This document shows, piece after piece, positions 41,801 through 60,145 of a stretch of 64,000 nucleotides of DNA. The translations under genes were made by a program, and so were the position numbers. Positions within the stretch are counted from its first letter, which is position 1. Each line of letters opens with the position of its first letter. Source of the DNA: Bosea beijingensis (lineage in GTDB: Bacteria; Pseudomonadota; Alphaproteobacteria; Rhizobiales; Beijerinckiaceae); NCBI RefSeq assembly GCF_030758975.1, contig NZ_CP132359.1, positions 3,181,282 through 3,245,281 of the forward strand, in the 5' to 3' direction. The notes beneath the pieces are model-generated. The model did no database searches and was not told the origin of the DNA. It worked only from the letters and a program-made list of their open reading frames with translations.

Positions 41801-41876
41801 GCTCCCTTCGTCTAGCGGTCTAGGACGTCGCCCTCTCACGGCGAAAACAGGGGTTCGAGTCCCCTAGGGAGCGCCA
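41801..41876 (+). tRNA. tRNA-Glu (anticodon CTC)
   Basis: The acceptor stem GCTCCCT pairs with AGGGAGC, followed by discriminator G and an encoded CCA. The anticodon stem TCGCC / GGCGA encloses the loop CTCTCAC, giving anticodon CTC. The T arm GGGGTTCGAGTCCCC is complete. Its 3' end is the probable integration site of the downstream element. Confidence 0.97.
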
Positions 41877-41994: not shown

Positions 41995-43908
41995 ATGGGC
42001 CGCATCAACGCCAACGGAAATCCGTTTCTCGTCGAACGCGCCGAAGGCGGTTTCACCTATTTCCGCAACATCCCGCCTGCGCTTCGGGCTGCTGCAGCGG
42101 GAGAGGTCGCGTTGCCATGGACGGGCGAGCGACGTGCGGTTGGCGGACGCGCCACGATCAAGATCGCGCTGGGCACGCGTGACATCGCCCTCGCGCGCAA
42201 GCGCTGGTTCGACATTCATCCGCAAGTCGAGGACATTATCGAGGTCGCGCGCCTTCGGCAGGTCCGATCGAAGCGTCCCGAAACGCCCCGCGCGGTGACT
42301 GGCCTGTCCCCGTCGGATATCGAGACGATGGCGAAGCGGTACTACCAGCAGATTCTGAGCCGCGATGATGACGAGGTGTTGAGGGACGACACGCTCGCCG
42401 ACCAGACGGAGATCGTCTTGGAGGAGGCTGGCTGGTCGAAGGACGATCCTGGTGCCGTCCGGGCGGCCCGGCGAGAAGCGCATGAGCGTGAACTCGGAGT
42501 GCTGGCGCGCGGTCTGGAGGACATGAAAACCGTGGACTACGACGGCTCGTCTCTCGTTCCGAGGCTCGCCTCGCTGACCGCCGACGGGCATTCGGAGGCC
42601 AGCGCACGCGCGATCAAGCAGATGCTCGACGATGCTGTCGGAGAGAACGAGATCGACGCCGTTCTCGCCGAAAACGGCGTCACCATCCCGCGCGTGCATC
42701 CGGATCGCCGACGGCTTGTCCTTGCCCTCTTAAGGTCAGGCATGGAAGCCCATCAGGACGTGCTCGCGCGACTGGATGGCAAGCCCGTCCAGACACCGGT
42801 TCCGATCGCGCCTCTGAAGCTTCCAGACCCAGACGAAGGTTCGAAGTTGCGGGATGCCTACAAGGCTTGGAAAGTTCAGCAGAAGCCCGCCGACAAGACG
42901 GCAGAGGAATATGGCGTCTATGTCGAGCGTTTCATCGCCATCAACGGAAATCTGTCGATCCGCTCGATCACGAAGAAGCACGTTCTTGCCTATCGCGACG
43001 GGTTGAGCCTCTTCCCGCGGAATGTGCCGGCCGATCTCCGGGAGGCCAATGTCGAAGCCATCCAGGAATGGGCGGCGAAGAAACGGGCGAAGCTCTTGTC
43101 GCGGAGCACGATCAACGACAAAGCAATTGGTGCGATTTCCGCGATCCTCGCTGTCGCGCTGAATCACGATGAAATCCCATCTAACCCCTGCGCTGGGACA
43201 AAATTCAAGCTCAAGGAAGGCGAGATCATTGAGCGTCAGCCCTATGCCGATCGAGATTTAGAGAAGCTCTTGCTTTCGGCCGTCTTTGCGAAAGGGAAGC
43301 GATATTCAGCGGGCGGAGGTGAGGCACAGAAGTGGCTGCCATTGATCTCGATGTACAGCGGAGCCCGATTGGAAGAGATCGGCCAGCTGAGGACAGCCGA
43401 TATCCGCAGCCAAGACGGAATCCACTACTTCGACATGGAGACGATCGACGACACGCCTGGCCAGGAGACGCATCGGAAGACCAAGTCATCCCGGCGCAAG
43501 GTCCCCGTCCACCAGCGTCTGATCGAGCTCGGGTTGTTGACTTACGTTGCTGCGCAACGGAAGGCCGGGGCGGTTCGGCTCTTTCCCTTGCTGACTCCCT
43601 ATCGCGGGAAGATCACGCACGGGTTCAGCAAGTGGTGGGGACGCTACGCGCGAAAGTTTGTACCTGTGGAAGAAAACAAGACCTTTCACAGCTTTCGTCA
43701 TCGCGTCACCGATCAGTTCCGCAACCAGGCCAAGCCGCTCTATGCAGTCATGCAAGAGGTGCTCGGCCACGATGTGTCTGATACAACAAGCGGCTATGGG
43801 GCGGGCTTCGATCTGCCGACGCTTGATTCCGCGGTTCAGGCGTTGAATTATGGACCAAAGATCGACGCATTGTTGAAAGCGATCAGCCCCATGCGAATTG
43901 TGACCTAG
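41995..43908 (+). CDS. int: Large tyrosine integrase
   Basis: A 637-residue site-specific recombinase, much longer than XerC. An N-terminal DUF6538-like domain (about 10-80) and a helical middle precede a core-binding region (about 285-400). The catalytic domain carries R458 in SGARLEEI, lysines near 497-502, H565 and R568 in HSFRHR, H592 in VLGHDVSD, and nucleophile Y601. GGAGG lies eight bases before the ATG. It sits 119 bases after tRNA-Glu, the typical place for the integrase of a tRNA-targeting element. Confidence 0.93.
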   Translation: MGRINANGNPFLVERAEGGFTYFRNIPPALRAAAAGEVALPWTGERRAVGGRATIKIALGTRDIALARKRWFDIHPQVEDIIEVARLRQVRSKRPETPRAVTGLSPSDIETMAKRYYQQILSRDDDEVLRDDTLADQTEIVLEEAGWSKDDPGAVRAARREAHERELGVLARGLEDMKTVDYDGSSLVPRLASLTADGHSEASARAIKQMLDDAVGENEIDAVLAENGVTIPRVHPDRRRLVLALLRSGMEAHQDVLARLDGKPVQTPVPIAPLKLPDPDEGSKLRDAYKAWKVQQKPADKTAEEYGVYVERFIAINGNLSIRSITKKHVLAYRDGLSLFPRNVPADLREANVEAIQEWAAKKRAKLLSRSTINDKAIGAISAILAVALNHDEIPSNPCAGTKFKLKEGEIIERQPYADRDLEKLLLSAVFAKGKRYSAGGGEAQKWLPLISMYSGARLEEIGQLRTADIRSQDGIHYFDMETIDDTPGQETHRKTKSSRRKVPVHQRLIELGLLTYVAAQRKAGAVRLFPLLTPYRGKITHGFSKWWGRYARKFVPVEENKTFHSFRHRVTDQFRNQAKPLYAVMQEVLGHDVSDTTSGYGAGFDLPTLDSAVQALNYGPKIDALLKAISPMRIVT

Positions 43909-44807
43909 CTGTTACCAACTTGGGTCGAGCGCGGCATCTTGTTTGAGGTGCCGGCTGAACCCTTGAACGCCTGCCCGAACCCCTGCGCCCTGGACTTCCA
44001 CCCCGCGGTCGCCTGCCGCCCCGGCGCGACGACATGGTCATGGATGATGCGCTCGGCGATGCGGATGAGGCGGTCGGCATCGAAGCCCTTCGGGCGAAAG
44101 ACGTAGAACTCCTGCGCCTGGCTCGCGCGCATGATCGCGCCGAAGCCGTAGGCCGTGGCGCGCATCGCCTCTTCCGGCGCGATGCCGATCAGCCGGCAGT
44201 GCGCCTGGCCGGCCTGGCTCCCAAGCCAGGGATTGAGCGCGGCGTTGCGCATGCGAGCGTGAAGGCGCTTGTCGAACTCGCGGATCGAGAGGTCGGCCGG
44301 AAGCCGGACCGCGAGGCAGCGCTCGGCGAGCACGACGGGCGATCCATCGAGAGGCTTGCTGTTCGGCAGGATGTGCTGCCCCATCCAGTTGTCGTACCCG
44401 AGATCGCTGCAGGGGTAGCCGTCGGCGCTGGTGGTGAGTGCGCCATAGCGATCGGCGTTGAGCTCGCGGAAGCGGTCTCGCAGATGGACCTGCGCGGTGA
44501 CCGAGACCTTGTGGAGCGGCATCCTGAGGCGGCGGGCGAGGCCAAGCAGGCCGGTCCCGACCGTCGGCATGCTGTGGTCCTCGCCGCAGCCGGCGACATA
44601 CATGAAGACGAGCTTGCCCGGCTGATAGGCCGCGAGGAAACGCGTTCCGTTGAAGGCATCGTTGGCGAGAGGCAGCAGCGTCTTCCCGCCGATCCGCGGC
44701 CATTGCGTCGGGAACCATTGGGTGATGGCGCCGGCCGAGCCATCCGGCAAGAGCCGGCTGCCGATCGGGCGCTTCGAACGGATGGCGGGCGTGGTCCTGG
44801 TCTTCAT
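43905..44807 (-). CDS. Hypothetical protein convergent with the integrase
   Basis: A 300-residue protein I do not recognise. It is soluble and rich in Arg and Ala, with no signal peptide or membrane segment. Recurrent features are a GCGEDHSMPTVG stretch, a DNWMGQH stretch, and a basic C-terminus (GRQATAGWKSRAQGFGQ). Its stop overlaps the end of the integrase gene by four bases. It is the last gene of the minus-strand cluster that includes the AAA+ ATPase 54 bases upstream, so it may belong to the same functional unit. Confidence 0.7.
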   Translation of the reverse strand: MKTRTTPAIRSKRPIGSRLLPDGSAGAITQWFPTQWPRIGGKTLLPLANDAFNGTRFLAAYQPGKLVFMYVAGCGEDHSMPTVGTGLLGLARRLRMPLHKVSVTAQVHLRDRFRELNADRYGALTTSADGYPCSDLGYDNWMGQHILPNSKPLDGSPVVLAERCLAVRLPADLSIREFDKRLHARMRNAALNPWLGSQAGQAHCRLIGIAPEEAMRATAYGFGAIMRASQAQEFYVFRPKGFDADRLIRIAERIIHDHVVAPGRQATAGWKSRAQGFGQAFKGSAGTSNKMPRSTQVGNS

Positions 44808-44861: not shown

Positions 44862-46085
44862 TCACCCCCGCTCCCCTTCGTCCTTGCGCTTTGGCGTGAT
44901 GAACCCGATCGGCCTCCTCGCGCCCTCTTTCCCGCCGATGAGAACCTGCTCGGCCTGACGGATGTCGGCGATGTCGAGATCGCGCCGCCCGGCCTCGCAG
45001 GCGAAGCCCATGGCGATGGGCCAGAGGCGCGAGAGCGTGCGCGGGTTGTGGCCGGCGATGGCCTTGAACAGCGCCGCCCCGGGTTCGGCGAAGCTTTGTC
45101 CGACGCGCAGGTTGGCCTCGTGGAAGAGGCTTTTCTGGATCGCCAGCATCTCATCGGGCTTCAGCGCGACCTGGAACACGATTAGACGGTCGACGATGCT
45201 GGGCGAGAGCGGCGAGAGGCTGTTGGCGGTGGCGAACCAGAAGATGTGGTCGGCGCGGATCGGCAGATCGAGAAACTCGTCGACGAAGCGGGCGGCGTTC
45301 TCGCGCTCGAGGAGCGAGTGCAGGACGTTCTCCGGTGTCTCGCTCGGGTTGATCGGCGAGGCTTTTTCGATCTCGTCGATGACGATCAGCGGGGAGGCAT
45401 GGCTGCCCTCGATGAGGAGTTTGGCGACCTTGCCCGGCCCCGACGACCGCCAGACCGGGGTCAGCCCGGAGAAGGCCGAGCCGCGGTCGGTCATCAGGTT
45501 CATCGCGATGACCTCGGAAGGGACGCCCAGCGCCTCGGCGAGCTTGCGGGCATAGAAGGTCTTGCCCGTTCCCGGCGGTCCGACCACGACGGCTGGATCG
45601 AGCCGCAGCGGCGTGCCGGTCGCAGCGCTCAACCCCGCCGCCCGGACGATCCAGGCCGTGACCTCGCTGAAGTGCGGACAGATCGCGTCCAGGCCCGCGA
45701 TGCGCGCGATCATGACCGCGTCCGGGATGACGAGCTTGCGCCAGGGACCCCGCTCATCTCCTTGCATCCGGGTCCAGAGCCTGATCTGGCGGGCGTCGCC
45801 GGCATCCTCGCCCTTGCCGCTCTCGGCGGGATCGCCGACGAAGCCATCGCCCTGGCCGAGACGGCGGGCGAGGCGCTCGGCATCGTAGATCTCGATCGTG
45901 GGGCCCAAGGTCGCCGCCGCGGCCTCGCCGACCGGGGCCGGCTCCTGCGCCTGCGGGAGGGCTGCCCTGCCGTCGGGGCGCTGCCGGCGCAGGTGGCCGA
46001 GCAGGGCGCGGTTCTCATGGTCGCGCCAGCTCTGCCCGAAGGCGGCCTCGACGTCCTCGGACGGGTCAGGCATTTTGCTGCTCAT
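44862..46085 (-). CDS. AAA+ ATPase, Lon-like core without protease domain
   Basis: A 407-residue ATPase. A divergent N-terminal region of about 110 residues precedes the AAA+ core: Walker A GPPGTGKT (169-176), Walker B LIVIDEIE (233-240), sensor 1 ATAN (285-288) and an SPSIVDR arginine-finger region. The core resembles Lon, but no serine-lysine protease domain follows; the protein ends soon after the lid. It begins eight bases after the stop of the paralog A gene and is certainly co-transcribed with it. The client is unknown. Confidence 0.85.
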   Translation of the reverse strand: MSSKMPDPSEDVEAAFGQSWRDHENRALLGHLRRQRPDGRAALPQAQEPAPVGEAAAATLGPTIEIYDAERLARRLGQGDGFVGDPAESGKGEDAGDARQIRLWTRMQGDERGPWRKLVIPDAVMIARIAGLDAICPHFSEVTAWIVRAAGLSAATGTPLRLDPAVVVGPPGTGKTFYARKLAEALGVPSEVIAMNLMTDRGSAFSGLTPVWRSSGPGKVAKLLIEGSHASPLIVIDEIEKASPINPSETPENVLHSLLERENAARFVDEFLDLPIRADHIFWFATANSLSPLSPSIVDRLIVFQVALKPDEMLAIQKSLFHEANLRVGQSFAEPGAALFKAIAGHNPRTLSRLWPIAMGFACEAGRRDLDIADIRQAEQVLIGGKEGARRPIGFITPKRKDEGERG

Positions 46086-46093
46086 GACCCGCC

Positions 46094-47035
46094 TCACAGC
46101 TCGACGCCGCCGAGGACGGTCACGAAGGGCGGTCCCTGCCGGGCGATCCTGCGGCCGACGCCGAGTGCGATCTCGACCAGCGCCCGCATCGCATCGGGAT
46201 CGGCGGCGCGCTCCGAGACGAGCCGCTCCACCTCCATCTTCACGATCAGGTCGTCGGAGCTGCGCGCCGGCCACAGCCCGATCCGGCAGAGGCGGGCATA
46301 GGCAAGGATCAGCGCCCCGCGGCGGGCACCGTACCAGAAGGGGGCGGGCGGTTCGGCCTGCGACCAGGTCTCGATGGTCGCGAACAGGGTCCTTGCCTCG
46401 TCGAGCAGGAGAGCGAGATCGGGGGGATCGTCGAACCAGGCTTCGAGCGCCGGTCCATGCTCGAGGTGATAGACCTCGGTTCCGCCGGCATCGCTGTCGC
46501 CGGGCCGCGGCAGCACGGCGCCGCTGAAGCGCAGAGCAGCCTCCTGCATGCCGGGCGGGATGCGCGCGCCGATGACGGGACGCGGATGGTGGTCGGCGAA
46601 GGGCCGCAGCAGTGCCCCCTTCATCAGTGCAGGATCGTGGACGCCGTCGCCGAAGCGATACTGCTCGCCCCGCTCCTTGGCGAGCATGGTCCTGGCGAAA
46701 TGGTCCTCGGGCGAAGCCGGAGGCACCAGCAGCATCGCGATCTCGCCGGCATGGGCAAGGAGCGCGAGCGCATTGCCGATATCGACCAGATGCTCCAAGA
46801 CCGAGGGATCGGCTTCGGCGAGCGCCAGGAACCTCTGATACTCCCGGGCATGCACAAGCGCCCTTCCGCGCAGGTCGAGGAGCGGCGGCAGCCGCTCGAG
46901 CAGCGCGGCATGGCGCTCCAACGCGTCCGGCATCTCCGGCAGGAGCCAATCGAGCGCGGCGAGTTCGTCGAGAACGGGCTTGCTGTCCGTCTCGAAGACG
47001 AGATCACGCAGAGACGGTGCGGTGTTATCGGTCAT
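46094..47035 (-). CDS. Uncharacterised paralog A of a four-member family in this element
   Basis: A 313-residue soluble protein of no known family. It shares with paralogs B (47164-48057), C (48214-49131) and D (63495-64000) an N-terminal PVLDELAALDWL motif, a helical ALALLAHAGEIAMLL segment, and a C-terminal YARLCRIGLWPAR helix followed by ADPDAMRA. It lies directly before the Lon-like AAA+ gene. ATG 47035 is chosen because the conserved part starts here; a longer frame exists upstream but runs through the terminator. Confidence 0.8.
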   Translation of the reverse strand: MTDNTAPSLRDLVFETDSKPVLDELAALDWLLPEMPDALERHAALLERLPPLLDLRGRALVHAREYQRFLALAEADPSVLEHLVDIGNALALLAHAGEIAMLLVPPASPEDHFARTMLAKERGEQYRFGDGVHDPALMKGALLRPFADHHPRPVIGARIPPGMQEAALRFSGAVLPRPGDSDAGGTEVYHLEHGPALEAWFDDPPDLALLLDEARTLFATIETWSQAEPPAPFWYGARRGALILAYARLCRIGLWPARSSDDLIVKMEVERLVSERAADPDAMRALVEIALGVGRRIARQGPPFVTVLGGVEL

Positions 47036-47098
47036 GGTCTGATTGAGTCCCGAGGGGTCGGCCTGTCCGCCCTTTCCCCTCCCTCCTCGCCATGACGA

Positions 47099-47124
47099 AA
47101 GGCGCGACGAGAACGTCGCGCCTT
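47099..47124 (-). terminator. Hairpin terminator after paralog B
   Basis: An eleven-base-pair perfect stem AAGGCGCGACG / CGTCGCGCCTT. On the minus strand it is followed by TTTCG. It lies 40 bases after the stop of paralog B and before the start of paralog A. Confidence 0.7.
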
Positions 47125-47163
47125 CTGCTGCCCCGAACATGTCGAGCCCCTGCCCGGCGCCGG

Positions 47164-48057
47164 TCAGTCGCGCGGCGGCACGATCTCTCCGAGCTCGCTC
47201 GCCCAGGAGACGGCCGCGCGCATGGGATCGGGATCGTGGTCGCGCGGCCCGATGAGATCGAGCGCGGCGGCCTTGATCGCAACCTCCTCCGCATCGCGGG
47301 CCGGCCAGAGTCCGATCCGGGCGAGGCGCGCATAGGCGAGCAGTTCGGCACCGCGGATCGGATCGACCAAGAGAGCGGGATTGGAGATCTTGGTCTGCAT
47401 CCGGCGCCAGACGTCGATCTGGCCGAGCCACTCGCGCGCACCGTCGAGCAGGTCGCGGGGATCGGCGCCGGTCGCTTGCCAGAGCGCCAGAGAGCTCGAC
47501 AGCGCGAGCGGATAGACCGCGGCTTCTCGCGGGCGGGCATCGAGACCGCTTGGCGCGGCCGGCGGCAGCTTGGCGGGGCTCATCCCCGCTTCGCTCAGGG
47601 CGACAAATTCGCCACCGCACATCCGCATCGCCCGGTTGTGGACGGCAGCGTTCCCCGATCGCTTGGCCTGCGCGCGGATCGCGCGGCGCAATCCAACGAG
47701 CGCCCGATAGTCCGCATCGGTCCGATGTGCGATCAGGACGGTGGCGACATTGGCCGTGTTGATCAGGAGTGCGAGCGCCCTGGCGCTGTCGCGGACCTCA
47801 TCGCTCGCGCCGAGTAGGCCCTCATGAACCTGGCTGAGAAGACGACCGAGTTCAGCCGTGTGGAACTGCGCCCGAGCCCGGATCGGCAACAGCGACGGAC
47901 GGTCTCGCCAGACGCTAGCGGCCCGCCGCACGACCGATCCGTCGACGTCGGCAAGAAGCTCGAGCGCCTCGAGCTCATCGACCACGGGGACCAGCGGCAT
48001 GGCGGGAGCGGCTGCGCTATCGCGCGCGCCGGCGTCGTTTTCAGGGATGGAGATCAT
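47164..48057 (-). CDS. Uncharacterised paralog B
   Basis: A 297-residue protein homologous to paralog A. Its PVVDELEALELL start, ALALLINTANVATVL segment and YARLARIGLWPAR helix match A closely; the C-terminus (DPDPMRAAVSWASELG) also corresponds. No domain of known function is seen. The N-terminus has about 20 residues of Ala-rich sequence before the conserved part. Hairpins lie on both sides, so it may be its own transcription unit or be read through. Confidence 0.8.
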   Translation of the reverse strand: MISIPENDAGARDSAAAPAMPLVPVVDELEALELLADVDGSVVRRAASVWRDRPSLLPIRARAQFHTAELGRLLSQVHEGLLGASDEVRDSARALALLINTANVATVLIAHRTDADYRALVGLRRAIRAQAKRSGNAAVHNRAMRMCGGEFVALSEAGMSPAKLPPAAPSGLDARPREAAVYPLALSSSLALWQATGADPRDLLDGAREWLGQIDVWRRMQTKISNPALLVDPIRGAELLAYARLARIGLWPARDAEEVAIKAAALDLIGPRDHDPDPMRAAVSWASELGEIVPPRD

Positions 48058-48144
48058 GGCCGAAGCCTCTTTTCCTTAGGGGTGAACTGCTTTCCGCAGC
48101 GCCTCCCTCCGCTTCACCTCCAACCGGCTCGCCGTTTAACGCAA

Positions 48145-48174
48145 AAGGGGCGGCGCCTTTCGGCGCCGCCCCTT
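48145..48174 (-). terminator. Strong hairpin terminator after paralog C
   Basis: A perfect 13-base-pair stem AAGGGGCGGCGCC / GGCGCCGCCCCTT with a four-base loop. On the minus strand it is followed by TTGC after the TT of the stem, giving a short T-run. It is 40 bases after paralog C's stop. Confidence 0.75.
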
Positions 48175-48213
48175 CCACCTCGAACTGGCTCCCAGTCGGG
48201 CAACTAAGAGTCG

Positions 48214-49131
48214 TCAGATCACGCGGATCCCACCTGCTGTTTCACGCTGCATCCGCCGAAGCTCTTTCAGCCGCTCGGCCATCAGTCCGGCGAGCATGAC
48301 GATGTCGCGCAGGCGCGGTTCACTCAGCCGCGCCATCTGCTCTGCGACGAGCGGCCGGACCGTCTGGTCATCGGGCGCGAGCGCCGCGATCAGGCAAGCG
48401 CGCGCCAGGTCGGCCGTCGCCAGCAGGGTCGCTCCCGCATCCGCGCGCCGGAGCCGGTCGAGCGCCTCCATGTCGAGATCTCCCTGCGCGATCGCGGCTG
48501 CGAACCGATCGGCATCGTCCAGTTGCAGCGCGGCGCGCGCGATGAGCGAGCGCGACGGGGCCAGCGACCGGACGAAGGCGGCAAGGCTCAAGCCCTGTTC
48601 GAGGCCGAGCATGGCCGGGCGCTGATCAAGCCCTTCACCCGTCGCGGGAACGGCGGGAGCCGCCAGTTCGGTCGCGATCGCATCGGGAAGGATCGTCCCG
48701 TCATGAGCGAAGGCCTGCCGTGCGGCCTCGGCAAGGCCCACATCGCCGCCGCCAGCGGTTATGATGTCGTTGAGAACCCGCTGGCGGATTGCGATGTCGG
48801 CTGGCGTGCGCGGCGGGAGCAGCGCGACGGCGAGCGTCGAGGCGGCATTCAGCAGCGACAGGCCGATCAGCATGTCGAGGAAGGCCGCGACCTGCATCCG
48901 GTCGGAGGTGCCGGCGAGTTCCAGGAAGCGGCCAATCTCATCGGCATAGCCGATGGCGCGCGCGGCGATTTCGCAGACCGAGACGGGTTCGGCAGCCAGG
49001 GCCGCGTAGCCCTTTTCCGGGCCGGCTGCGAGCGACAGCCGACCGGCAAGGCCGGCAAGGTCGTCGATCACGGGCCGGAGCGGCAGTTCGAGCTCGATGT
49101 CGGCGAGCGAGAGAGCGGAGGTGGTCTTCAT
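48214..49131 (-). CDS. Uncharacterised paralog C
   Basis: A 305-residue soluble protein, the most divergent of the A-D family. It keeps the PVIDDLAGLAG start, the LSLLNAASTLAVALL segment and a C-terminal helix (ADLARACLIAAL) at the place where A and B have LWPAR. ATG 49131 is chosen; upstream frame is not conserved. It is the first of three paralog genes leading to the AAA+ ATPase. A ribosome-site match is weak. Confidence 0.75.
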   Translation of the reverse strand: MKTTSALSLADIELELPLRPVIDDLAGLAGRLSLAAGPEKGYAALAAEPVSVCEIAARAIGYADEIGRFLELAGTSDRMQVAAFLDMLIGLSLLNAASTLAVALLPPRTPADIAIRQRVLNDIITAGGGDVGLAEAARQAFAHDGTILPDAIATELAAPAVPATGEGLDQRPAMLGLEQGLSLAAFVRSLAPSRSLIARAALQLDDADRFAAAIAQGDLDMEALDRLRRADAGATLLATADLARACLIAALAPDDQTVRPLVAEQMARLSEPRLRDIVMLAGLMAERLKELRRMQRETAGGIRVI

Positions 49132-49316: not shown

Positions 49317-50258
49317 TCAAGTTTCCCGCGGAGACACGGCCGCGACCGCCTGCCCGGCGAGGCTTCGCGCCACGTCAGGAAGGTCCAGCGCGTCGAGCAA
49401 CGCGATGGCATCGGCGCATCGTGCGAGATGCTGCTTGTCGGCCATTAACTGTCTCGCAGCCGTCGCGGCACGCACACTTGCGGACGGCGCCAAATCAATG
49501 GTGCCGTCCCACGCGCGACCTTCGCCGTGGCTGCCATGGCTGACCATGCAAAGCGTCAGGGACAAGACACTGACGACTGTTACAGGCGAAATGGAAACAG
49601 CCTTCCCAGCCGCCGTCACGTGAAGTGCCACGCGAACCGACCCATGGTCCTCGGGCGTATAGTCGGCCGACAGGCACCAGGAGATCTCCTCTCCGGCAGC
49701 ACGCTCGCGGCGGACACCTGGATCCGTTGCCAAGATCTGGGCGATCTCGGACGTGGACACCTTGTCAAGGAACGGCTGTCGTCCGGCCGCGACACGTTCG
49801 GCTCGTGCCTGCCGGGAGCTGGGGAAGAACCGCGGCCCCGCAACGATCAGCTCGGCTGCATCGATCATCCGCTCCTGATCGAGCGCGAACGGCCGGGGAT
49901 TCAGAAGCGGGAGAGGCCTGAACTGGGTTTCGACGCGACAATCTGCAAAGGGCCGGCCCAGGTCGTGTTCGAGCACCTTCGCTAGCGCGGTCTGCGCGCT
50001 TCGAACGAGGTCGTTCGCGAAACTGGGCACGAGCGCGGCATCGGGAGCGAACAGTCCTCCGGCAGCAATCGGCCGATCCCCGGGTTCCCGCATGACGAAC
50101 TCGAACGGGATCAGCGCTGCGACGCTTGAATGTGTGTCGCCCGCCGAACGGTTCGGGCCGGCATCCATGGCGGCCTGGGCCTGGCCGGAGACTGGGTCCG
50201 GCAGCATCGAGGCCGAGCCAACGCCTGGGCTGCCGCATTCTTGATTCTGTCGCTGCAT
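49317..50258 (-). CDS. Uncharacterised protein P1, paralog of the protein at 57876-58829
   Basis: A 313-residue soluble protein of unknown function. It shares several stretches with P2: RPIAAGGLFAP against RPVASGTLFAP, FRPLPL against DRPLPL, IDAAELIVAG against TYAAEFIVSG, TDPGVR against TDPNVR, and RVALHVTA in both, followed by a hydrophobic helix. No catalytic motif is recognised. ATG 50258 has a strong GGAGG site five bases upstream. It is divergent from a 12-codon stub of a LysR gene. Confidence 0.75.
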   Translation of the reverse strand: MQRQNQECGSPGVGSASMLPDPVSGQAQAAMDAGPNRSAGDTHSSVAALIPFEFVMREPGDRPIAAGGLFAPDAALVPSFANDLVRSAQTALAKVLEHDLGRPFADCRVETQFRPLPLLNPRPFALDQERMIDAAELIVAGPRFFPSSRQARAERVAAGRQPFLDKVSTSEIAQILATDPGVRRERAAGEEISWCLSADYTPEDHGSVRVALHVTAAGKAVSISPVTVVSVLSLTLCMVSHGSHGEGRAWDGTIDLAPSASVRAATAARQLMADKQHLARCADAIALLDALDLPDVARSLAGQAVAAVSPRET

Positions 50259-50390
50259 CGTTTCCTCCATCAATCGCTGGGTGCTCTCGGTGCGCAGCCG
50301 GACTGCGGGCCATCCCTGCAGGCTCGGCAGGGAGTTTCCTCAGGGGGTTGCGCACGATCTCCACATGCTGTCCTGACGGCGGATTCCTCC

Positions 50391-50449
50391 TTAAGCTTTT
50401 CGCTCCAAAAATGAGCGACTGCGATACGTTTATGAAACAGCAGCGCTGA
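50391..50449 (+). pseudogene. Stub of a LysR gene (promoter region plus first 12 codons)
   Basis: Bases 50391-50440 match 58977-59026, the region around the start of the intact LysR gene, at 43 of 50 positions with the same spacing from TTAA to ATG. The reading frame gives MSDCDTFMKQQR and then stops, where the intact gene begins MSDGDTPMKQPE. Nothing similar to the rest of LysR follows. A conserved leader peptide with its promoter is the alternative reading. Confidence 0.6.
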
Positions 50450-50548
50450 TTTGTTCGTTGGACTCCCGCGCCGAGACCATTCGGCTTTGGATAGGCAGGG
50501 GCGATCCGGCCGAATGGAGCCGGGGGCAATGCCGGCGCGGTTCGCCGG

Positions 50549-53500
50549 TCACCGATCGGGCTCGTTTTCCTGATCTGGTGGTCGACCGCCCGGAGGGCGG
50601 GACCGAGCGTTCGACTGTCGCTGGATGTCGCGCGGCGAGGATGTGGCTTGCGGAGGCCCGGCGTCGGCTTTGGGCGGCCCACCGAACACCTTCTCCGCAT
50701 CCGCCCGCAGGATGTCGGTGCTTGTCCGCTCTCTGACGGTCAAGCGATCAGCATCGATGCCCGGAATGCTGATCGACCTGCTCCGGCGCGGATCGGGTGG
50801 GGGCGACGAGAGACCCGGCTTGGTCGCGATCGGCGCGCGATCGAGCGAAGGCTTCTTGTGTTCGACGGCGTCGCCTATCTCACCGGCTCGGGACGGTATC
50901 GGTTTGGGCTTGAAGAGCGACAAAAGAGCAGCAATCCGCCCTGCGGCTGGCTTGCCTTTGTTCGCAATTTGTTTGCCAGCATCCGTTCGCGGTTGCTGAC
51001 CGGCTACGCCCGCAGCGATCTGACGCTCGGTGTTGCGAGACGCTGTCCCGAGAATCTCGACGTCGGAAACGTGTCTTGGAGTGATCAGCGATGGATCCAG
51101 GCGGTCGGCGATGCGTGCGCGCAGGGCGTCTACCACCGAGGGGTTTTCTCCGTCCGTATCCGTATCCACTGCCCGAGCCGGCTCTCGCATCAACGGGATA
51201 TCATTCAAGCCGGGGGGCCTTACCCCATTCGTCAGTTCCTGCACGGGCTCATGGCGATCATGCGTTTGTGGTTCTGACAGCAAGGATGGGTTTGCCACCT
51301 GCGCCGTTGCGCGCGAAATGGCCTCGATTGCCGCCGTGCGCCGGATCTCGATCTTGTGGCGACGGACGCCGGTCGATTCCGGCTCGTCGTCGTCGAGCGC
51401 AAAGGGGAGCGTTTCGAACGACGGGACGGATGCCGGCCGCGAGACAACCGCCCTTTTCAATTCACGCGGGTCGATTGTTTCGGAGTTTTCCGGGAGGATC
51501 GGTGTGGGGCCGCCGCGATTCAGCGTGTCGCTCCCCGCGATTCGTTGATCGCGGACGACGTCGGGGCCAGCGGCGCTTTCGCGGGTGAGAAATGCGTCGT
51601 TTGCCTTCCCAAACCCGGCGGCATTCCGCCGGGCCAGTTCTATCAGAAAGGCTTTCCGGCGCTTCACGCCGATGGAGACATCCGTCTCGGCCGCCTCGAA
51701 GGCGCCGACGCCGAGCCGCGCTGAATTCAGCAGGTCGGCTGCCTTGCGTTGGCGAATGTCACGCGCCTGGCTCCACGCCGCGCGCGAAATGGCCTCGATC
51801 GTCGCGCGCTGGATCGCGATCTTGCGGCGACGGACGCCGGTCGATTCCGGTTCGTCGTCGTCGAGCATGAAGGGGCGCGTTTCGAACGGCGCCATGGAGA
51901 CCTGTCGCGCGACAGCCGCCTTTGTCGGTTCACACAGGTCGCTCCTGGCGGAGTTGTCCGTGATGGCGAGTGCATGACTGCTGCGGTTCAGCGTGTCGCT
52001 TCCCGCGGTCCGTTGATCGCGAACGACGTCGTGGCTAGCGGCCCTTTCGCGGGTGAGAAATGCGTCGTTTGCCTTCTCAAGCCCGGCGGCATTCCGCCGG
52101 GCCAGTTCGATCAGGAAGGCCTTCCGGCGCTTCACGCCCATGGAGACATCCGTCTCGGCCGCCTCGGAGGCGCCGACACCGAGCCGCGCCGAATTCAGCA
52201 GGTCGGCAGCCTTGCGTTGGCGCATGTCACGCGCCCGGCTCCACGCCGCGCGCGCCATGGGATTATAGGCCCAAAGGCCCGCCTGATTGCGAACGAAGGC
52301 GCGGGCCTGGCGTACCGATTTCGTCAGGAATAGCACCGCTGCCTGAACGAGGCGGTGTTCGGATACCGCGCCCCGGCGCCTGAGGGCTAAGTCAGCCCAG
52401 CGCGACCATGGCAAACGGGTCGGCAGCAGCTCGAGTGCAAATCCGCTGCGGCGATGTCCGAAGATATGGCCTCGCACCACGCGCCCGCCGAACCACTGGC
52501 GGCAGGTCTCCAACAGCGGCAGCTGATCGAGGCGCGTCTGTTCAGCATTCGACAGGGACAACGGTGTTGGCAGTCCGCGTCGAGCCGGTTCGATCGGGGT
52601 GGCCAAACTCGGCCCGGTCTTGCCAAACCGACCGGTGATATCGTCATCCGACGCCTTCCGAAGCAGAATCCGGGAGTCGGCCCGCGCTTGTTGCATGCTT
52701 TCCTTAAATGCGGCCACCGGGTCATCGGCCCGCAGCCAGGCCATCGCATCTACGATGAAGTCGCTGGGGTTGACCTTCAGAATCTGGCTGTCGGCTTCCT
52801 GCCGGATCCTGGCGATCACGCGAGCCATGTCCTGATGTGAAAGCGGTCGCGCTGTCTGTTCGCCATGCTCATCCGCGCCGCGAAAGCCGCCGCGGCGCGA
52901 GATCCCTGCCGCGTTCGATCCTCCGCGCGGGAGAATGCGGCTTCCGTCGACATGAAGCGACAGGCTCGTGCGATGCCGCGTGCAGGCGACGTAAATGTCT
53001 GACGACCGCATCGGCGAAAGATTGACGACAACCGCGCGATCCACCGTCTGACCCTGCGCGGCGTAGTTCGTGCAGGCATAGGCATGCTGCATATGAATAG
53101 TGCTGCTGCCGCCTTCGGCGTCCTTGACGGCGAGAGCGCTCGCTCGGGTCGCCATCACGATGGGCCTGCCGTTGTCATCGAGCCGGTCGAGTTCGAAGGT
53201 CAGATGCGGATCGCTACCGTCATCCACCGAAAGGATCGTTGCCACGTCGGAATTGAAGATGTCGGCCGGCGCCAGACGTATGCGTCGCCCAAACGTGACG
53301 CGATCTCCGACACGAAGCTCGAGCTCCCGTGGATGCTTCTCCGACCCACGGCCTCTCGCCTCGATGGTGATCGCCTCCGGGCCGAGATGCCCTCTTCCGA
53401 TCAGGGCGAGGCGCACAAGCCGGTTGAGCTCATGCACGTCCTCGTTGCGAATTGTGATGAGCAGTTGCTGGGCCAATTCCTTCGTCGTCCACGAAGGGCC

Positions 53501-55513
53501 GACGGGGATCGCTGCATCGAGATAGGCGGCGATGGATGCCTCCAACGTCGCGCTCCGATCCCGATGAACAGCGATTTCACCAGCATCGTGATAGAACTGC
53601 AATCCAGCGGCGCCTTTGCCTGAGGCAAATGCTAATGAGGCGTCCCGCATCCATGATGTTGTTTGTCGCCGGATCTCGTCGAGACGATGCGACCCGAGCA
53701 GCTTGATCAGGGCCCGCATCGGTGCGCCTCGCTGAACCGGCTGGAGCTGGCGTGTGTCGCCGGTGAGAATCAGCTTGGCGCCGGCGACCGTCGCGGCGGC
53801 GACCAGGATTTGAAGGTCCTGAGATCCGGCCATGCCGGCCTCGTCGACCACGATGACCGTTCGGTGATCGATCACCTCTGTTCCAGCCTGGATCGCATGG
53901 ATGAGGGGGTCGAGCGCCTGAGCGTCCGCGACCGGAACATGAGACTCCTGGCCCGCCAACCGCGCGGCTTTCCAGGCCGGTGCCGCGATCAGGACGCGGC
54001 GTTGATCCGCTTCGAGGATCCGTCGAAGCAGCTTCAGGACAAAAGTCTTGCCGGTTCCCGCGGCGCCTTCGGCAATGCAGACGCCATCCCGGTTGAGCAT
54101 ATGGCGCACGGCGGAACGTTGCTCGACGCTGGCCGAACTGCTCGTCAGAACCGACGCGATGGCGGATTGGGGCGGAGGGGTCCACTGTCCCCGTGCCGAC
54201 ATGGCGGCTTTGAGCAGCGCGTACTCCTCTCGAATGGATTCCGGCGCCAGGAAGCGTTGGGTCTCGTAGGAGACGCGCGGCAGCGCGATGAGCTCGGCTT
54301 CCTTGGTTCGCGCCTGCTCGACGATTTCGGCGGCGCTGAACCGTGTCTGGCGCGTCTGCGCTTCGATGCGAAGGATGTCGGCGCGGGTCGCGATCAGTTG
54401 CTTCTCGCGAAATGCTTCGTGGCTGAGCCGCACATGGTCCACGACCGGATTGCCGCGACCGGGTTCGACCCGGCGCGTGCGCCGACCTGCCGATTCCCGT
54501 TCGACCTGCGACCAGATCATGTCGATGTCGAAACCAATGCCCGCGAGTTCGGCGAGCCAAGCTTGCTGCAGTTGAGTGAGCGGTGTCGTATCGTCCTTGT
54601 TCTTTCGGGTGTTACGGGCTGCGTAATCGGACGCCTCCCGGTGATCGGTACTTGTCAGGCCCTTGGCGGCAAGGTCCTCCACGACCGCGGCGCGCCGCTG
54701 GCTGAACAACTTCGTGGCGGTTTCAGGTACACCCGGAATGTCGATACCGGGACCGGACGAGGACAGCTCCGTCTCGATGCCGAGCCGCTCCCGCAGCCTG
54801 CCCGTGAGCTCGGCGCGATAGAGGGCCGAGCAGGCATTCTTGAAAATCAGCAGGTCTCTGTTCTCGATGGCGCCGACCCCGCCGTCGTCCCGCAGGCAGA
54901 GATTGAACAGGACGGCGTGACTATGCAGCTGCGGATGCGTGTCGCGATTAGTCAGATGGCGGTAGACGGCGACACAGCTCTCCGCGGCCGGCTTCCGAAT
55001 GCGTCCTTGAGCGCCACGTCGATTGAGGATGAAGCCCTCGCGGGCCATCAGCCGCAATGTCGCCTCGACCGCCTCGTCATGGATGGCCAGCATCTGGTCG
55101 CGGCGGTGCGAGCTCGAAAGCAACGCCAGCACAGAATACGCCTTTTCGGGAGAAAAGGTCAGGTCGTAGGCCACGACATGCGTCGGCGCGTCTGGGTCCG
55201 CTTGACGTTTGCCGCGGCGAACGCGCCCGGTTGCGACCGGCTCGATGAAGACTACTCCTGTCCGCAGATCGCGTCCTTGTCCCAGGCACTCGACGATGGC
55301 GAAGCTCGCCGGCGCGCCGTCGCGGAAGGTTCCGAACGGTCCAGCGTCACGATCTTGTTCGACCCCTGTCGGCCCGACGAGGCGCAGCAGGGTTCCCAGC
55401 GAGCCCCCGCGCTGTTCGTAATAGCCGAGACCAAGATCCTGGCGATCCTCACCGACCTTAGCCTCCTTCACGCGATAGTAGTCGATCGAGGTCACCGTCT
55501 TGATGGTGATCAT
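50549..55513 (-). CDS. traA: MobF-type conjugative relaxase-helicase (TrwC/TraI-like)
   Basis: A 1654-residue protein. The N-terminal TrwC relaxase domain (about 1-300) has the catalytic tyrosines DYY at 11-13 (a second YY at 31-32) and the metal-binding three-histidine motif with H193, H197 and H199. The RecD-like helicase follows with Walker A GAAGTGKT (483-490), Walker B VIVVDEAG (553-560), GDTRQLQPVQ and YVACTRHRTSL. The C-terminal 650 residues are basic and include a duplicated segment of about 157 residues (around 1085-1400). ATG 55513 overlaps the stop of the upstream small gene by four bases. It nicks the transfer origin and unwinds the strand for transfer. The symbol is by analogy. 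Confidence 0.9.
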   Translation of the reverse strand: MITIKTVTSIDYYRVKEAKVGEDRQDLGLGYYEQRGGSLGTLLRLVGPTGVEQDRDAGPFGTFRDGAPASFAIVECLGQGRDLRTGVVFIEPVATGRVRRGKRQADPDAPTHVVAYDLTFSPEKAYSVLALLSSSHRRDQMLAIHDEAVEATLRLMAREGFILNRRGAQGRIRKPAAESCVAVYRHLTNRDTHPQLHSHAVLFNLCLRDDGGVGAIENRDLLIFKNACSALYRAELTGRLRERLGIETELSSSGPGIDIPGVPETATKLFSQRRAAVVEDLAAKGLTSTDHREASDYAARNTRKNKDDTTPLTQLQQAWLAELAGIGFDIDMIWSQVERESAGRRTRRVEPGRGNPVVDHVRLSHEAFREKQLIATRADILRIEAQTRQTRFSAAEIVEQARTKEAELIALPRVSYETQRFLAPESIREEYALLKAAMSARGQWTPPPQSAIASVLTSSSASVEQRSAVRHMLNRDGVCIAEGAAGTGKTFVLKLLRRILEADQRRVLIAAPAWKAARLAGQESHVPVADAQALDPLIHAIQAGTEVIDHRTVIVVDEAGMAGSQDLQILVAAATVAGAKLILTGDTRQLQPVQRGAPMRALIKLLGSHRLDEIRRQTTSWMRDASLAFASGKGAAGLQFYHDAGEIAVHRDRSATLEASIAAYLDAAIPVGPSWTTKELAQQLLITIRNEDVHELNRLVRLALIGRGHLGPEAITIEARGRGSEKHPRELELRVGDRVTFGRRIRLAPADIFNSDVATILSVDDGSDPHLTFELDRLDDNGRPIVMATRASALAVKDAEGGSSTIHMQHAYACTNYAAQGQTVDRAVVVNLSPMRSSDIYVACTRHRTSLSLHVDGSRILPRGGSNAAGISRRGGFRGADEHGEQTARPLSHQDMARVIARIRQEADSQILKVNPSDFIVDAMAWLRADDPVAAFKESMQQARADSRILLRKASDDDITGRFGKTGPSLATPIEPARRGLPTPLSLSNAEQTRLDQLPLLETCRQWFGGRVVRGHIFGHRRSGFALELLPTRLPWSRWADLALRRRGAVSEHRLVQAAVLFLTKSVRQARAFVRNQAGLWAYNPMARAAWSRARDMRQRKAADLLNSARLGVGASEAAETDVSMGVKRRKAFLIELARRNAAGLEKANDAFLTRERAASHDVVRDQRTAGSDTLNRSSHALAITDNSARSDLCEPTKAAVARQVSMAPFETRPFMLDDDEPESTGVRRRKIAIQRATIEAISRAAWSQARDIRQRKAADLLNSARLGVGAFEAAETDVSIGVKRRKAFLIELARRNAAGFGKANDAFLTRESAAGPDVVRDQRIAGSDTLNRGGPTPILPENSETIDPRELKRAVVSRPASVPSFETLPFALDDDEPESTGVRRHKIEIRRTAAIEAISRATAQVANPSLLSEPQTHDRHEPVQELTNGVRPPGLNDIPLMREPARAVDTDTDGENPSVVDALRARIADRLDPSLITPRHVSDVEILGTASRNTERQIAAGVAGQQPRTDAGKQIANKGKPAAGRIAALLSLFKPKPIPSRAGEIGDAVEHKKPSLDRAPIATKPGLSSPPPDPRRSRSISIPGIDADRLTVRERTSTDILRADAEKVFGGPPKADAGPPQATSSPRDIQRQSNARSRPPGGRPPDQENEPDR
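51311..52258. repeat. Tandem duplication of about 470 bases within the relaxase gene
   Basis: Units at about 51311-51781 and 51782-52258. The stretch 51579-51781 matches 52047-52258 almost throughout, and 51311-51430 matches 51782-51900. The unit length is close to 157 codons and keeps the frame, so the protein has two near-identical segments. Confidence 0.85.
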
Positions 55514-55770
55514 CGCCGGCTCCGTCGGTGATCGAGAAGATGGCTCGCGATCGACTGGATTTGATCGTCGACTGTCGCGGCGCGTTCCAGCAGCGTCTCG
55601 ACCGCTTGCACCAGATGCTGCTCGCGCAAGGCCGTCTCGACGACTTCGGCAGGTGAGCACCTCCGCAACTTCGCCAGTCGCTGGACGAAATCATAGGCCT
55701 CGCAGCTCACGGCGATCCGCAGTTCCCGCCTCGATCGGGAGCCTGCCGAGTCGGGTTTGAGGTTTCCCAA
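55510..55770 (-). CDS. Small DNA-binding-like protein coupled to the relaxase (possible relaxosome accessory)
   Basis: An 86-residue protein. The segment SRRELRIAVSCEAYDFVQRLAKLRRCSPAEVVETALRE has the strand-helix-helix pattern of ribbon-helix-helix proteins. Its stop overlaps the relaxase start (ATGA), so the two are translationally coupled. Relaxosome proteins of this size, such as TrwA, bind the transfer origin and regulate the relaxase operon; that role is inferred here from fold pattern and position. Confidence 0.65.
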   Translation of the reverse strand: MGNLKPDSAGSRSRRELRIAVSCEAYDFVQRLAKLRRCSPAEVVETALREQHLVQAVETLLERAATVDDQIQSIASHLLDHRRSRR

Positions 55771-55801
55771 AGACTTACCCCTCGTCTTGCCGGCCAGCCT
55801 G

Positions 55802-55821
55802 CACCCTCGGTGCGTAGGGTG
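55802..55821. other. Inverted repeat, candidate part of oriT or an operator
   Basis: CACCCT and AGGGTG arms with an eight-base spacer, in the 153-base gap between the relaxase operon and the divergent gene at 55924. Transfer origins usually lie in such gaps next to relaxase genes. No known MobF nick sequence is recognised. Confidence 0.35.
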
Positions 55822-55923
55822 TGAGGCTCAAAGCGCAGTGCGGCGAATGCCGGCCACGCGGTCATGACTTCTTAATCGTCTGACGTCATTCTATATCAGG
55901 CATAGATTAACGAGGAGACAAAG

Positions 55924-56463
55924 ATGACGACGAAGACCGACGAGGCGGCGATTCCGATCATCCGCCGCAAGGTGCTGGAGCAGGCGATCGCAGAGCTGCT
56001 GACCGAGCCTTCGCCTGCGCTTCTGGAAGGCAAGATCCTGAAGGAGTACGGCGCGCAGCTGCATCAACTGAGGGAGCAGGGCTACTCCGCGCACGATGTC
56101 GCGCAACGTTACATCGAGAGGCTCGACGGTGCATCGGTCAGGCTGAAGAAGAAGATCGTGCAGATCTTCGAGCGCTTGTTCAACGACTTCGACAACGGTG
56201 TGTGGCGGCCGGTTTCGACCGCACCCAAAGACACCAAGAAACAGCCGGGACCGGCTGGCGAGGCCGACGCAGCACGCCGCGAAGCCGAAGCGGAGGCTCA
56301 AACCCGCGTCACGGAAGGCGACACCAAGTCTGGTGACACCAAGGAGCCGGATGATGGCTCTCTCGATCTCGAAACGATCGAGGCACAGTTGAGACACCGA
56401 TCGCAGCAGCGCGACGACAGTGCAGATGCTTTGCCATCCGCCGGTCAGGACGGCGCAAGGTGA
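55924..56463 (+). CDS. Hypothetical protein divergent from the relaxase operon
   Basis: A 179-residue protein. Residues 10-85 are helical and conserved-looking (RKVLEQAIAELLTEPSPALLEGK, QLREQGYSAHDVAQRYIER). The remainder is a charged, low-complexity tail rich in Asp, Glu, Lys and Ala. No known domain is recognised. Its place across the putative oriT gap suggests a conjugation or regulation role. AGGAG lies in the 10 bases before the ATG. The last 19 bases overlap the end of the next gene, which is convergent. Confidence 0.65.
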   Translation: MTTKTDEAAIPIIRRKVLEQAIAELLTEPSPALLEGKILKEYGAQLHQLREQGYSAHDVAQRYIERLDGASVRLKKKIVQIFERLFNDFDNGVWRPVSTAPKDTKKQPGPAGEADAARREAEAEAQTRVTEGDTKSGDTKEPDDGSLDLETIEAQLRHRSQQRDDSADALPSAGQDGAR

Positions 56464-57311
56464 CGAGGTACCTGCACCAGCTCGACGCCGATCGCTTGCG
56501 CATGGCCGGCCGCGCGCAATTCGTCGAGCATCTCCAGCGCCGTCGCGCGCTCGTCCGTGTTGGTCGTGCAATAGACGGCGCGATAACCGAGCGCGCAATA
56601 GCCCATCAGAGCGATCATGGTCTGGGTCGTCAGTGTCGTCCGCCGCGCGACATCGCCCCGCGCAGCCGAGATCGAAACCAGCACGATCTCGCCTTTGTCG
56701 TCGAAGGCGAGATGCAGAAGCGGCGTCCGCTGCAAGGCCGCCAATGGGCCTGGAATCCGCAGCCGCGTGCGCGGGCCTGCGCGCCATCCCTTGGCCGACC
56801 AGATCGCTACAGCGCCGGGATGCCGCTCGACGATCATGATTTCGACGGCTCCAGCGACGGCGATCTGCCATTCGCTGTCGCTCATAGGAGCACCGAGCAC
56901 AGGTTGGCCGCTGGCCCGGCCTTGTCGTTCGAGCTCGCGCAAGCCAGACAGTCCAATGTCGCCATCGGCGACACGACGTGCCGCCGCAAGGGCTCCGACG
57001 CGGTCGCGCCTGGCCCAGCTTGCGAGAACCAGCACCGAATCGATCGGGGCGCGCTGCAAGTCGCGGCCAAGATCCCGATCGCCTATCTCGACATCGCAGA
57101 CAAACCGAGCGGCTCGCACGAGGCGCTGCACGACCTGCATCTTGCCTCCGACCTTGACCGCGAAAGACCGATACGCCGCCTCGCTCGCCCCGCCGGACGC
57201 TTCGAGATGGCGCATCGCCGCCTGGGCATAGTCGAACCAGGTCTCGGCCGTCGCCACGATCCGGCTTCCCGGCGGCTTCAATGGCTCGCGTTTGTCGACA
57301 GGCCTGATCAT
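56445..57311 (-). CDS. Hypothetical protein
   Basis: A 288-residue soluble protein I do not recognise. The C-terminal half contains LHLAFDDKGEIVLVSISAARGDVARR and TMIALMGYCALGYRAVYCTTNTDERA. ATG 57311 is chosen; ATG 57329 is also open but lies on the start of the divergent gene at 57328. It is convergent with the gene at 55924 and overlaps it by 19 bases. Confidence 0.6.
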   Translation of the reverse strand: MIRPVDKREPLKPPGSRIVATAETWFDYAQAAMRHLEASGGASEAAYRSFAVKVGGKMQVVQRLVRAARFVCDVEIGDRDLGRDLQRAPIDSVLVLASWARRDRVGALAAARRVADGDIGLSGLRELERQGRASGQPVLGAPMSDSEWQIAVAGAVEIMIVERHPGAVAIWSAKGWRAGPRTRLRIPGPLAALQRTPLLHLAFDDKGEIVLVSISAARGDVARRTTLTTQTMIALMGYCALGYRAVYCTTNTDERATALEMLDELRAAGHAQAIGVELVQVPRHLAPS

Positions 57312-57327
57312 CTCGAGGAGACCTACC

Positions 57328-57792
57328 ATGGCTAGCGGTATGCACAACGGCGACAGCCAACCTGATCCACGCTTGACGTCGCTCGACGGCCTGGTTGGCT
57401 CCGACGAAACACGGGAAGCGGGCCGCAAAACGCGCCGAGAGCGCCTGCAGGCCAGCGAGGACGAGCCTGACGACCTCACCGATCACGAGTTGCGCCTCAA
57501 GCTTTCCGATATGGCGGGTCAGATCTACCTGCGAGGCTGGCATCGCAATGTCGCCATGCTGACACCCGCGGAATCGACCGTCATCGCGGCGGTCATCATG
57601 GGGCTTGCGACCTCGGAGCCAGCCTTGCGGATCTACGATGATGTACTCGAGGGCAATGCTGACACGATCGCTACGCTCGTCGATACGATCGACAAGACCG
57701 CAGAAGCCATGAAGCAAAAGATGGAGGCGGCGGATCGCACCTATCACCAGAATGAAGCGAACGCTTGGGCGAGTAACGGGCGCGAGGCCTGA
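57328..57792 (+). CDS. Hypothetical protein
   Basis: A 154-residue soluble protein. The first 50 residues are charged and probably disordered; residues 50-135 are helical (LRLKLSDMAGQIYLRGWHRN, PAESTVIAAVIMGLATSEP). No family is recognised. A GAGGAGACC ribosome site lies directly upstream of ATG 57328. It is divergent, only 16 bases away, from the gene at 56445-57311. Confidence 0.65.
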   Translation: MASGMHNGDSQPDPRLTSLDGLVGSDETREAGRKTRRERLQASEDEPDDLTDHELRLKLSDMAGQIYLRGWHRNVAMLTPAESTVIAAVIMGLATSEPALRIYDDVLEGNADTIATLVDTIDKTAEAMKQKMEAADRTYHQNEANAWASNGREA

Positions 57793-57875
57793 CGGACGCC
57801 GGGCCCATGGTGCCCGGCGCATACCCTGCGCGCGTTCCAGCCATCCTGTTGCCGAGATACTGGGTCGGAGTTCTT

Positions 57876-58829: not shown

Positions 58830-58996
58830 GCTCTGGCTCCGTTGAACGGCGAGCTCGCAATGCCAAGCCCGCAATGAGATGTCCGAACGTCGTCGCGCAA
58901 GCGCTCCAACCCTTGGAGATGCTCTGTCACACCGGTCGGACAACGCCACCTTGAGATCGCCCGTGCAGATGCCGCGTTAAGGTTTCCGATCCAAAA

Positions 58997-60013: not shown

Positions 60014-60069
60014 CTGCGTGTTTCGAGCAGAAGATGCTGAGGATTGCCAGCTTGTGGTCCAGACGTGAC

Positions 60070-60095
60070 AGCAGCGCCCACGAAGACGCTGCCCT
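60070..60095 (-). terminator. Hairpin downstream of the first XRE gene
   Basis: CAGCG and CGCTG arms; 23 of 26 bases match the hairpin at 63440-63467. On the minus strand it lies about 50 bases after the stop of the XRE gene at 60146. T-run is poor here. Confidence 0.45.
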
Positions 60096-60145
60096 AGGTT
60101 TCGTCGCATGACAGGGCAACCATCAGACGCTCCGGACAGTCTTGT

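Follow-up and report, generated by a model that had tools for sequence, protein, structure and literature searches.

The window analysed here, a stretch of 64,000 nt from Bosea beijingensis (GCF_030758975.1, NZ_CP132359.1, positions 3,181,282-3,245,281), carries one copy of a gene module in which members of a paralogous protein family, here named PAR, are encoded together with a Lon-type AAA+ ATPase and a protein called X, and in most relatives also with an exonuclease of the exonuclease I (ExoI) type, called EXO, and a further protein called S. The gene set, its order and the co-occurrence of its parts recurred across the genus, and we tentatively read the module as a machine by which mobile elements attack competing DNA. 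An original prediction, made from the letters of the window, had placed four paralogs (A to D, here PAR-A to PAR-D) around the ATPase and proposed that they are subunits or adaptors of one machine, a proposal with which the gene neighbourhoods described below are consistent. The gene positions it gave were confirmed, as were the minus strand of all these genes and the 8 bases between the stop of PAR-A and the ATG of the ATPase. It did not see S, the ExoI-like exonuclease or X, nor that such a module often occupies the integrase-proximal end of an element integrated at a tRNA gene. The features of the window that concern the module are as follows.

41801..41876, plus strand, tRNA-Glu (ctc) called by ARAGORN, the presumed integration site
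41995..43908, plus strand, tyrosine integrase of 637 aa, with sub-threshold Pfam matches and a match to the integrase profile of other loci
43905..44807, minus strand, X of 300 aa, a conserved ATPase partner, with a possibly T5orf172/GIY-YIG-like N-terminal half
44862..46085, minus strand, Lon-type AAA+ ATPase of 407 aa without a protease domain, ATG at 46085
46094..47035, minus strand, PAR-A, of the class that is the nearest PAR to the ATPase in nearly all loci having it
47164..48057, minus strand, PAR-B
48145..48174, minus strand, hairpin 3' of PAR-C with a perfect 13-bp stem and a GAAA loop
48214..49131, minus strand, PAR-C
63495..64000, minus strand, C-terminal part of PAR-D, the gene running past the window end

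Distribution and layout of the module

We searched 67 genomes of the genus Bosea for the ATPase (E <= 1e-25) and for PAR (E <= 1e-8). The ATPase was observed in 25 genomes (48 places, with up to five places in one genome and several diverged copies in some), and PAR was observed in the same 25 (160 matches), the other 42 having neither. The chance of an identical set of 25 genomes, ignoring relatedness, is 6e-19. Counts by locus were made on 45 loci, consisting of 44 fetched neighbourhoods, the window and a second copy in the same genome (L006), minus L090, which was dropped since it overlaps L056. Two broken copies (L069, L070) were kept among the 45 loci and left out of the distance and hairpin counts.

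PARs were observed in all 45 loci, X in 41, EXO in 38 and S in 36, and each of the 314 module genes in these loci was found on the strand of the ATPase. The commonest order was S - EXO - PARs - ATPase - X, with minor layouts in which PARs stood behind the ATPase or behind X. The number of PAR genes varied, with a single PAR in one locus, two in 13, three in 12, four in 12, five in six and six in one. EXO was present in 24 of the 25 module genomes and in two of the 42 others, there at just 35-36% identity. The association of the paralogs with the ATPase, as proposed in the original prediction, is borne out by the shared 25 of 67 genomes, by the proximity of the two in every ATPase locus and by a conserved order of PAR classes. 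The further question of whether homologues always sit beside the ATPase has a divided answer, as all 45 ATPase loci had PAR and nine of the PAR matches listed lay away from an ATPase. One of these nine was in the window genome, five were in G065, where they sit behind exonuclease genes, two were in G023 and one was in G064, about 3 kb from an integrase.

The PAR family

Profile comparison, which had been named as the test that could refute the kinship of the four proteins, confirmed it. The class profiles matched one another with hhalign P-values of 2.3e-6 to 8.3e-50, while five unrelated profiles from the same loci gave P-values of at least 0.06 against the class of PAR-A. When PAR-B was used as query in a protein search of its own genome, PAR-A was retrieved at E 2.8e-19 and PAR-C was not found at E 1. 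By the labels used in the hhalign comparison and in the tree below, PAR-A falls in clade B, PAR-B in clade E and PAR-C in clade C; PAR-D was too short for the tree and was assigned to clade A because it is 88.6% identical, over 167 residues, to its full-length relative in L006. Some pairs of clades outside the window matched poorly, such as C-G (P 0.34) and G-H (P 0.22). The motifs first thought to unite the four proteins are shared in part. PV-x-D-[ED]-L is present in PAR-A, PAR-B and PAR-C and absent from PAR-D, which has DPIALV there, beyond the window end. The C-terminal LWPAR is found in PAR-A and PAR-B and IWPV in PAR-D, with neither in PAR-C, and ALALL is found in PAR-A and PAR-B and not in PAR-C or PAR-D. 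These motifs were partial across the PAR clades too.

No family was reached by PAR-A, PAR-B, PAR-C or X in Pfam, NCBIfam, PADLOC or PHROGs, and PAR-D had a weak PHROGs match only, to a family of unknown function. The predicted fold of PAR is that of an internally duplicated helical protein (pLDDT 85.9 for the PAR-A model), and the model had no significant structural match.

A tree of 140 PARs, each with a match covering at least 80% of the profile, was divided into 12 clades. Support was at least 0.96 for nine of the ten largest and 0.43 for the largest, clade A. With L061 left out of the count, 148 of 158 ordered class pairs followed one order, and all ten exceptions set clade A against clade C, clade A filling two places. 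The class of PAR-A came after every class paired with it, save once (clade K). This near-fixed class order fits distinct subunits better than recent amplification. It bears on one alternative, that the genes have no joint function and that the family grew by tandem duplication while hitch-hiking on mobile elements. A copy number ranging from 1 to 6 and the broken copies in L069 and L070 would suit such a history, but the distinct classes, their near-fixed order and their presence in the same genomes as the ATPase speak against it, and we give it very little credence.

Hairpins, counted as a perfect stem of 8 or more within 75 bases behind a gene, were found behind 54 of 142 PAR and 16 of 39 EXO genes, compared with 23 of 208 other genes of these loci. 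They were observed behind none of 44 ATPase, 4 of 36 S, 7 of 43 X and 2 of 25 integrase genes. Many of the PAR and EXO hairpins were strong, often with a GGCGCC-like core, and they may serve as terminators, so that each PAR would form a separate unit, or as places where cassettes are exchanged. A regulator gene in L006 appears to be flanked by two such hairpins.

The ATPase

The ATPase matched TIGR00763 at E 9.5e-18 over residues 167-307 (64 bits, against a full-protein cut-off of 608 bits), and its profile matched solved Lon structures at 1.7e-35. The predicted likeness to Lon holds for the AAA+ module and does not extend beyond it. Lon matches were confined to the AAA+ region, no C-terminal serine-lysine protease domain was found in the 407 aa, the alignment ending at a conserved IGF motif, and an N-terminal LON substrate-binding domain gave no Pfam or NCBIfam match at E 10. 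The protein aligns with the AAA+ module of Lon protease (LonA) but differs from that enzyme in having neither of the two other domains and in being encoded in a PAR/exonuclease/X gene set. The Walker A lysine, the Walker B DE and the DR residues were invariant in 24 of 24 ATPases, and the matches to PADLOC 2023 were weak P-loop matches only. In Phaeobacter and Martelella we also observed a Lon-like ATPase after two small genes that by eye resemble IS66 tnpA and tnpB, as though the ATPase were the third gene of the transposon (L016:8762-10735, L022:428-2290, L023:8876-10738).

Lon-type AAA+ modules unfold proteins, and this general property favours a second alternative, in which the Lon-type ring and its PAR adaptors would unfold or rearrange proteins and the exonuclease would be a mere neighbour. 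Several distinct adaptor-like paralogs per ATPase would be in keeping with such a role. So would five plasmid-borne ATPases distantly related to this one, around which 7-8 kb of sequence gave no match to X, PAR, S or the ExoI profile, though near one of the five, at about 1.1 kb, a 3'-5' exonuclease is annotated. Against a protein-remodelling machine stand the occurrence of EXO in 38 of 45 loci, on the strand of the module, and an ATPase without a protease domain, and we consider it improbable.

The exonuclease, S and X

EXO is an exonuclease I type protein with the Pfam domains RNase_T and Exonuc_X-T_C (observed in L076, L120 and L123), and it matched the PADLOC model RTasSbcB at 1.5e-80. Residues D7, E9, D100, H174 and D179, of DEDDh type and with ExoI-like spacing, were kept in 37-38 of 38 members; we take them to be the equivalents of the catalytic residues of E. 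coli ExoI. These features are shared with exonuclease I (SbcB) and with the SbcB-like exonuclease of defence reverse-transcriptase (DRT) loci, whereas here EXO belongs to an S-EXO-PAR-ATPase-X set. No reverse transcriptase was recognised by eye among the neighbour groups present in at least four loci, no profile search having been made.

The members of S (about 150 aa) that were scanned against Pfam, NCBIfam, PHROGs and PADLOC showed no clear relative there. Among 21 diverse members of X (about 300 aa), one matched T5orf172 at E 0.0052, and the hhalign comparison of the X profile with T5orf172 gave a P-value of 8.6e-5, decoys giving 0.02 or more, but a probability of 32. The positions conserved in the 21-row alignment map unclearly onto what we presume to be the T5orf172/GIY-YIG catalytic residues. 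Because the match is weak and the structure model failed, there is no more than a hint that X is a T5orf172/GIY-YIG-like nuclease. With this hint for X, the members scanned of S, PAR and X represent three families without a clear relative in these libraries, and none of them matched a PADLOC 2023 model.

The genome of the window contains two intact S-EXO pairs elsewhere (EXO at 5320213-5321604 and 5474558-5475958), with EXO proteins of 78 and 77% identity to the EXO of a relative and no PAR after either. A PAR fragment at 5552251 has a single N about 250 bases away. In total the genome has S, EXO, PAR, ATPase and X genes enough for two modules. The S-EXO pairs may have been split from the ATPase operons by rearrangements, or the separation may come from assembly joins. 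PAR-D itself is interrupted just past the window end by a single N of the assembly with a short exact repeat around it. Single N bases in this one-contig assembly were observed at L007:783, at L137:2201, 7226 and 12245, and at L190:18596; they are likely contig joins, so that the local gene order is to be read with care.

Relatives outside the genus

X was observed in 17 of 199 genomes of the family, representing 10 of 43 genera, and the full module was found in one other genus (L118). A total of 19 X loci (L118-L136) were examined, and the ATPase (E < 1e-60) was present in 10 of these and PAR (E < 0.01) in L118 alone. Two short unknown genes occupy the PAR position in L120, and X and the ATPase adjoin a relaxase-like gene (sub-threshold Pfam match) in L127. 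The nearby nuclease was checked in five of the ten loci with ATPase and X, and it was of the ExoI type in L120 and L123, an ExoVII large subunit in L131 and L134, and a PolB-type exo2 in L127. Because these three families interchange, exonuclease activity seems to be the feature that is kept, and this persistence of an exonuclease across changes of family speaks for DNA degradation as the output of the module. X relatives were not found in viral collections. On plasmids X was found once, on Bosea pNBC550 (L179:7800-8663), beside repABC, traD and MobA/MobL genes, and the profiles of ATPase, PAR, S and EXO found no match within 8 kb of it.

Integration and mobility

A tRNA gene was observed within 200 bases of the integrase in 21 of the 45 loci, the window included, with seven amino-acid specificities among them; the integrase matches of two of the 21 (L082, L084) were weak (E 0.002-0.004). 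The window integrase begins 119 bases past the tRNA-Glu and matched Phage_integrase at E 5.9e-6 (26.6 bits) and DUF6538 at E 5.3e-4, both slightly under the Pfam cut-offs. Mobility was evident for two relatives. In these two, out of five for which a further 80 kb each was fetched, the tRNA gene's 3' end recurs as a direct repeat, of 50 bases at a distance of 55.7 kb in G019 (tRNA-Arg) and of 30 bases at 91.7 kb in G049 (tRNA-Glu), and no such repeat was found in the other three or for the window copy. The module stands between the integrase and the other genes in both delimited elements. Read by eye, the 55.7-kb element contains metal-resistance-like, relaxase-like and ParA-like genes, and no type IV secretion genes were recognised by eye in either element. 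The relaxases observed were TrwC-type in the window and MobA_MobL in L089. With tRNA-integrated integrative conjugative and mobilizable elements (ICE/IME) the module-bearing elements share a tyrosine integrase next to a tRNA gene, the direct repeats seen in two of the relatives and the relaxase of the window copy; to our knowledge the module is not among the known core functions of ICE/IME.

One long integrase type, matched over at least 540 residues, was found in 16 places in the genus, 13 of them beside the module or within 10 kb of it. Of the remaining three, the one in G064 has a lone PAR nearby, and the contigs of the other two have no module listed. The window integrase was not matched by this long type at E 1e-40, and shorter integrases also carry the module, with weak or partial profile matches in L057-L059, L064, L082 and L084. 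Distances between proteins were compared as matrices, leaving out PAR classes present twice in a locus. Strong correlations were observed for EXO-S (r 0.69) and X-integrase (r 0.52; 0 of 2000 permutations, 19 loci), and weak ones for ATPase-S (0.25), ATPase-X (0.20), ATPase-EXO (0.17), ATPase-integrase (0.17) and X-EXO (0.14), while EXO and integrase distances were uncorrelated (r -0.03, 15 loci). By these distances the module is a mosaic.

The tie to integrases argues for a third alternative, in which the module processes the element's own DNA. As core machinery of the element, ATPase-PAR-X and the exonuclease would aid excision, replication, transfer or recombinational upkeep, or would suppress the host response to the single-stranded form. 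The place of the module between the integrase and other genes in both delimited elements, the correlated X and integrase distances, the 13 of 16 long integrases beside it, the relaxase-like gene in L127 and the plasmid company of the lone X are all consistent with such a role. However, the module also travels with shorter integrases and the window integrase lies outside the long type, EXO distances are uncorrelated with those of the integrase and ATPase distances weakly so, and a degradative exonuclease swapped among three families is, in our judgement, unusual for processing one's own DNA. We regard this alternative as a serious possibility and rank it below an attack on competing DNA. If it is true, the module would represent an undescribed core function of a whole family of elements.

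Defence neighbours and proposed mechanism

Neighbouring genes were listed as up to five nearest open frames of at least 180 aa per locus, with L056 left out. Among the S-side neighbours (82 genes of 30 loci), matches were found to the PADLOC models of DISARM, CBASS, Gabija and Qat, among the 25 listed of 100 matched families, the best match of each having E < 1e-68 with no control set. Pfam domains in individual S-side genes included SAVED, patatin, UvrD-type and helicase domains. We also observed, in the 91.7-kb element, a large DISARM-like helicase gene (by eye, with Pfam helicase domains) directly upstream of S (L083:1204-4365). The module and the four known systems have an ATPase/nuclease logic in common, and their models match S-side genes of some loci, but we know of none among them with such a paralog array. 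The original prediction knew of no described system with this layout, and we likewise found none in the family libraries or in those parts of the full-text literature that were accessible; relatives beyond the collections searched may exist.

We infer a machine composed of S, the ExoI-type exonuclease, one to six PARs, the protease-less Lon-type AAA+ ATPase and X, in which the PARs would serve as ordered, class-specific subunits or adaptors, and whose home would be the integrase-proximal end of elements integrated at tRNA genes and mobilizable in part. The ATPase would form a ring, and the duplicated helical PARs, perhaps together with S, would build a platform on this ring for recognising or capturing a nucleoprotein target. 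Remodelling driven by ATP would expose single-stranded ends, and the exonuclease would degrade these, a single-strand specificity taken from the known ExoI family. The likeliest use would be the exclusion of competing DNA, i.e. incoming conjugative DNA, plasmids or phages. The exchangeable nucleases, the diverse adaptors and the defence neighbours argue for such an attack, which we prefer among the readings without considering it more likely than not. If it is true, the module would be a new system in which the diversity of adaptors is built in and the nucleases can be exchanged. A broader proposal is that of a new kind of modular nucleic-acid machine with a protease-less Lon-type ring, an ordered set of exchangeable, internally duplicated helical adaptors, their genes often each ended by a hairpin, and an exchangeable exonuclease, whose adaptor set chooses the foreign DNA or protein to be attacked; it is a possibility that we consider less likely than not.

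Several observations weigh against an attack on competing DNA. The module is missing from 42 of the 67 Bosea genomes, and neither S nor EXO was found at either ATPase locus of the window genome (the window and L006). The structure model of X was poor (pLDDT 42), systems such as those matched on the S side are common on mobile elements, and the frequent proximity of the long integrase type to the module fits a core function of the element equally well. Distances of the ATPase hardly agreed with those of the PAR classes (r 0.02-0.20), which also counts against a strict interdependence of the parts. The same holds for the loci of other genera, nine of ten having ATPase and X without a detected PAR, and for the five plasmid ATPases without module partners.

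Other features of the window

The region between PAR-C and PAR-D contains the following additional genes.

49317..63379, all genes between PAR-C and PAR-D in the window copy
50549-55660, TrwC-type relaxase (Pfam TrwC relaxase, E 5.4e-46)
49317-50273 and 57876-58949, two look-alike unknown genes (likeness by eye)
within 49317..63379, LysR- and XRE-type regulators (by eye)
60888-62348 and 62306-63379, opposite strand to the module, the cargo pair CAR1 and CAR2

The two look-alike proteins flank the relaxase region, and no further members were found among the loci examined. The CAR1/CAR2 pair, encoded by unknown genes on the opposite strand, recurs inside or between module genes in the window, L056, L060, L071 and L077, and in the four relatives it stood directly ahead of one and the same PAR class (clade D), which would suit a preferred site of insertion. 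A shortened flagellin-like frame adjoins PAR-D (L007:1458-1802), beside a longer flagellin gene (by eye).

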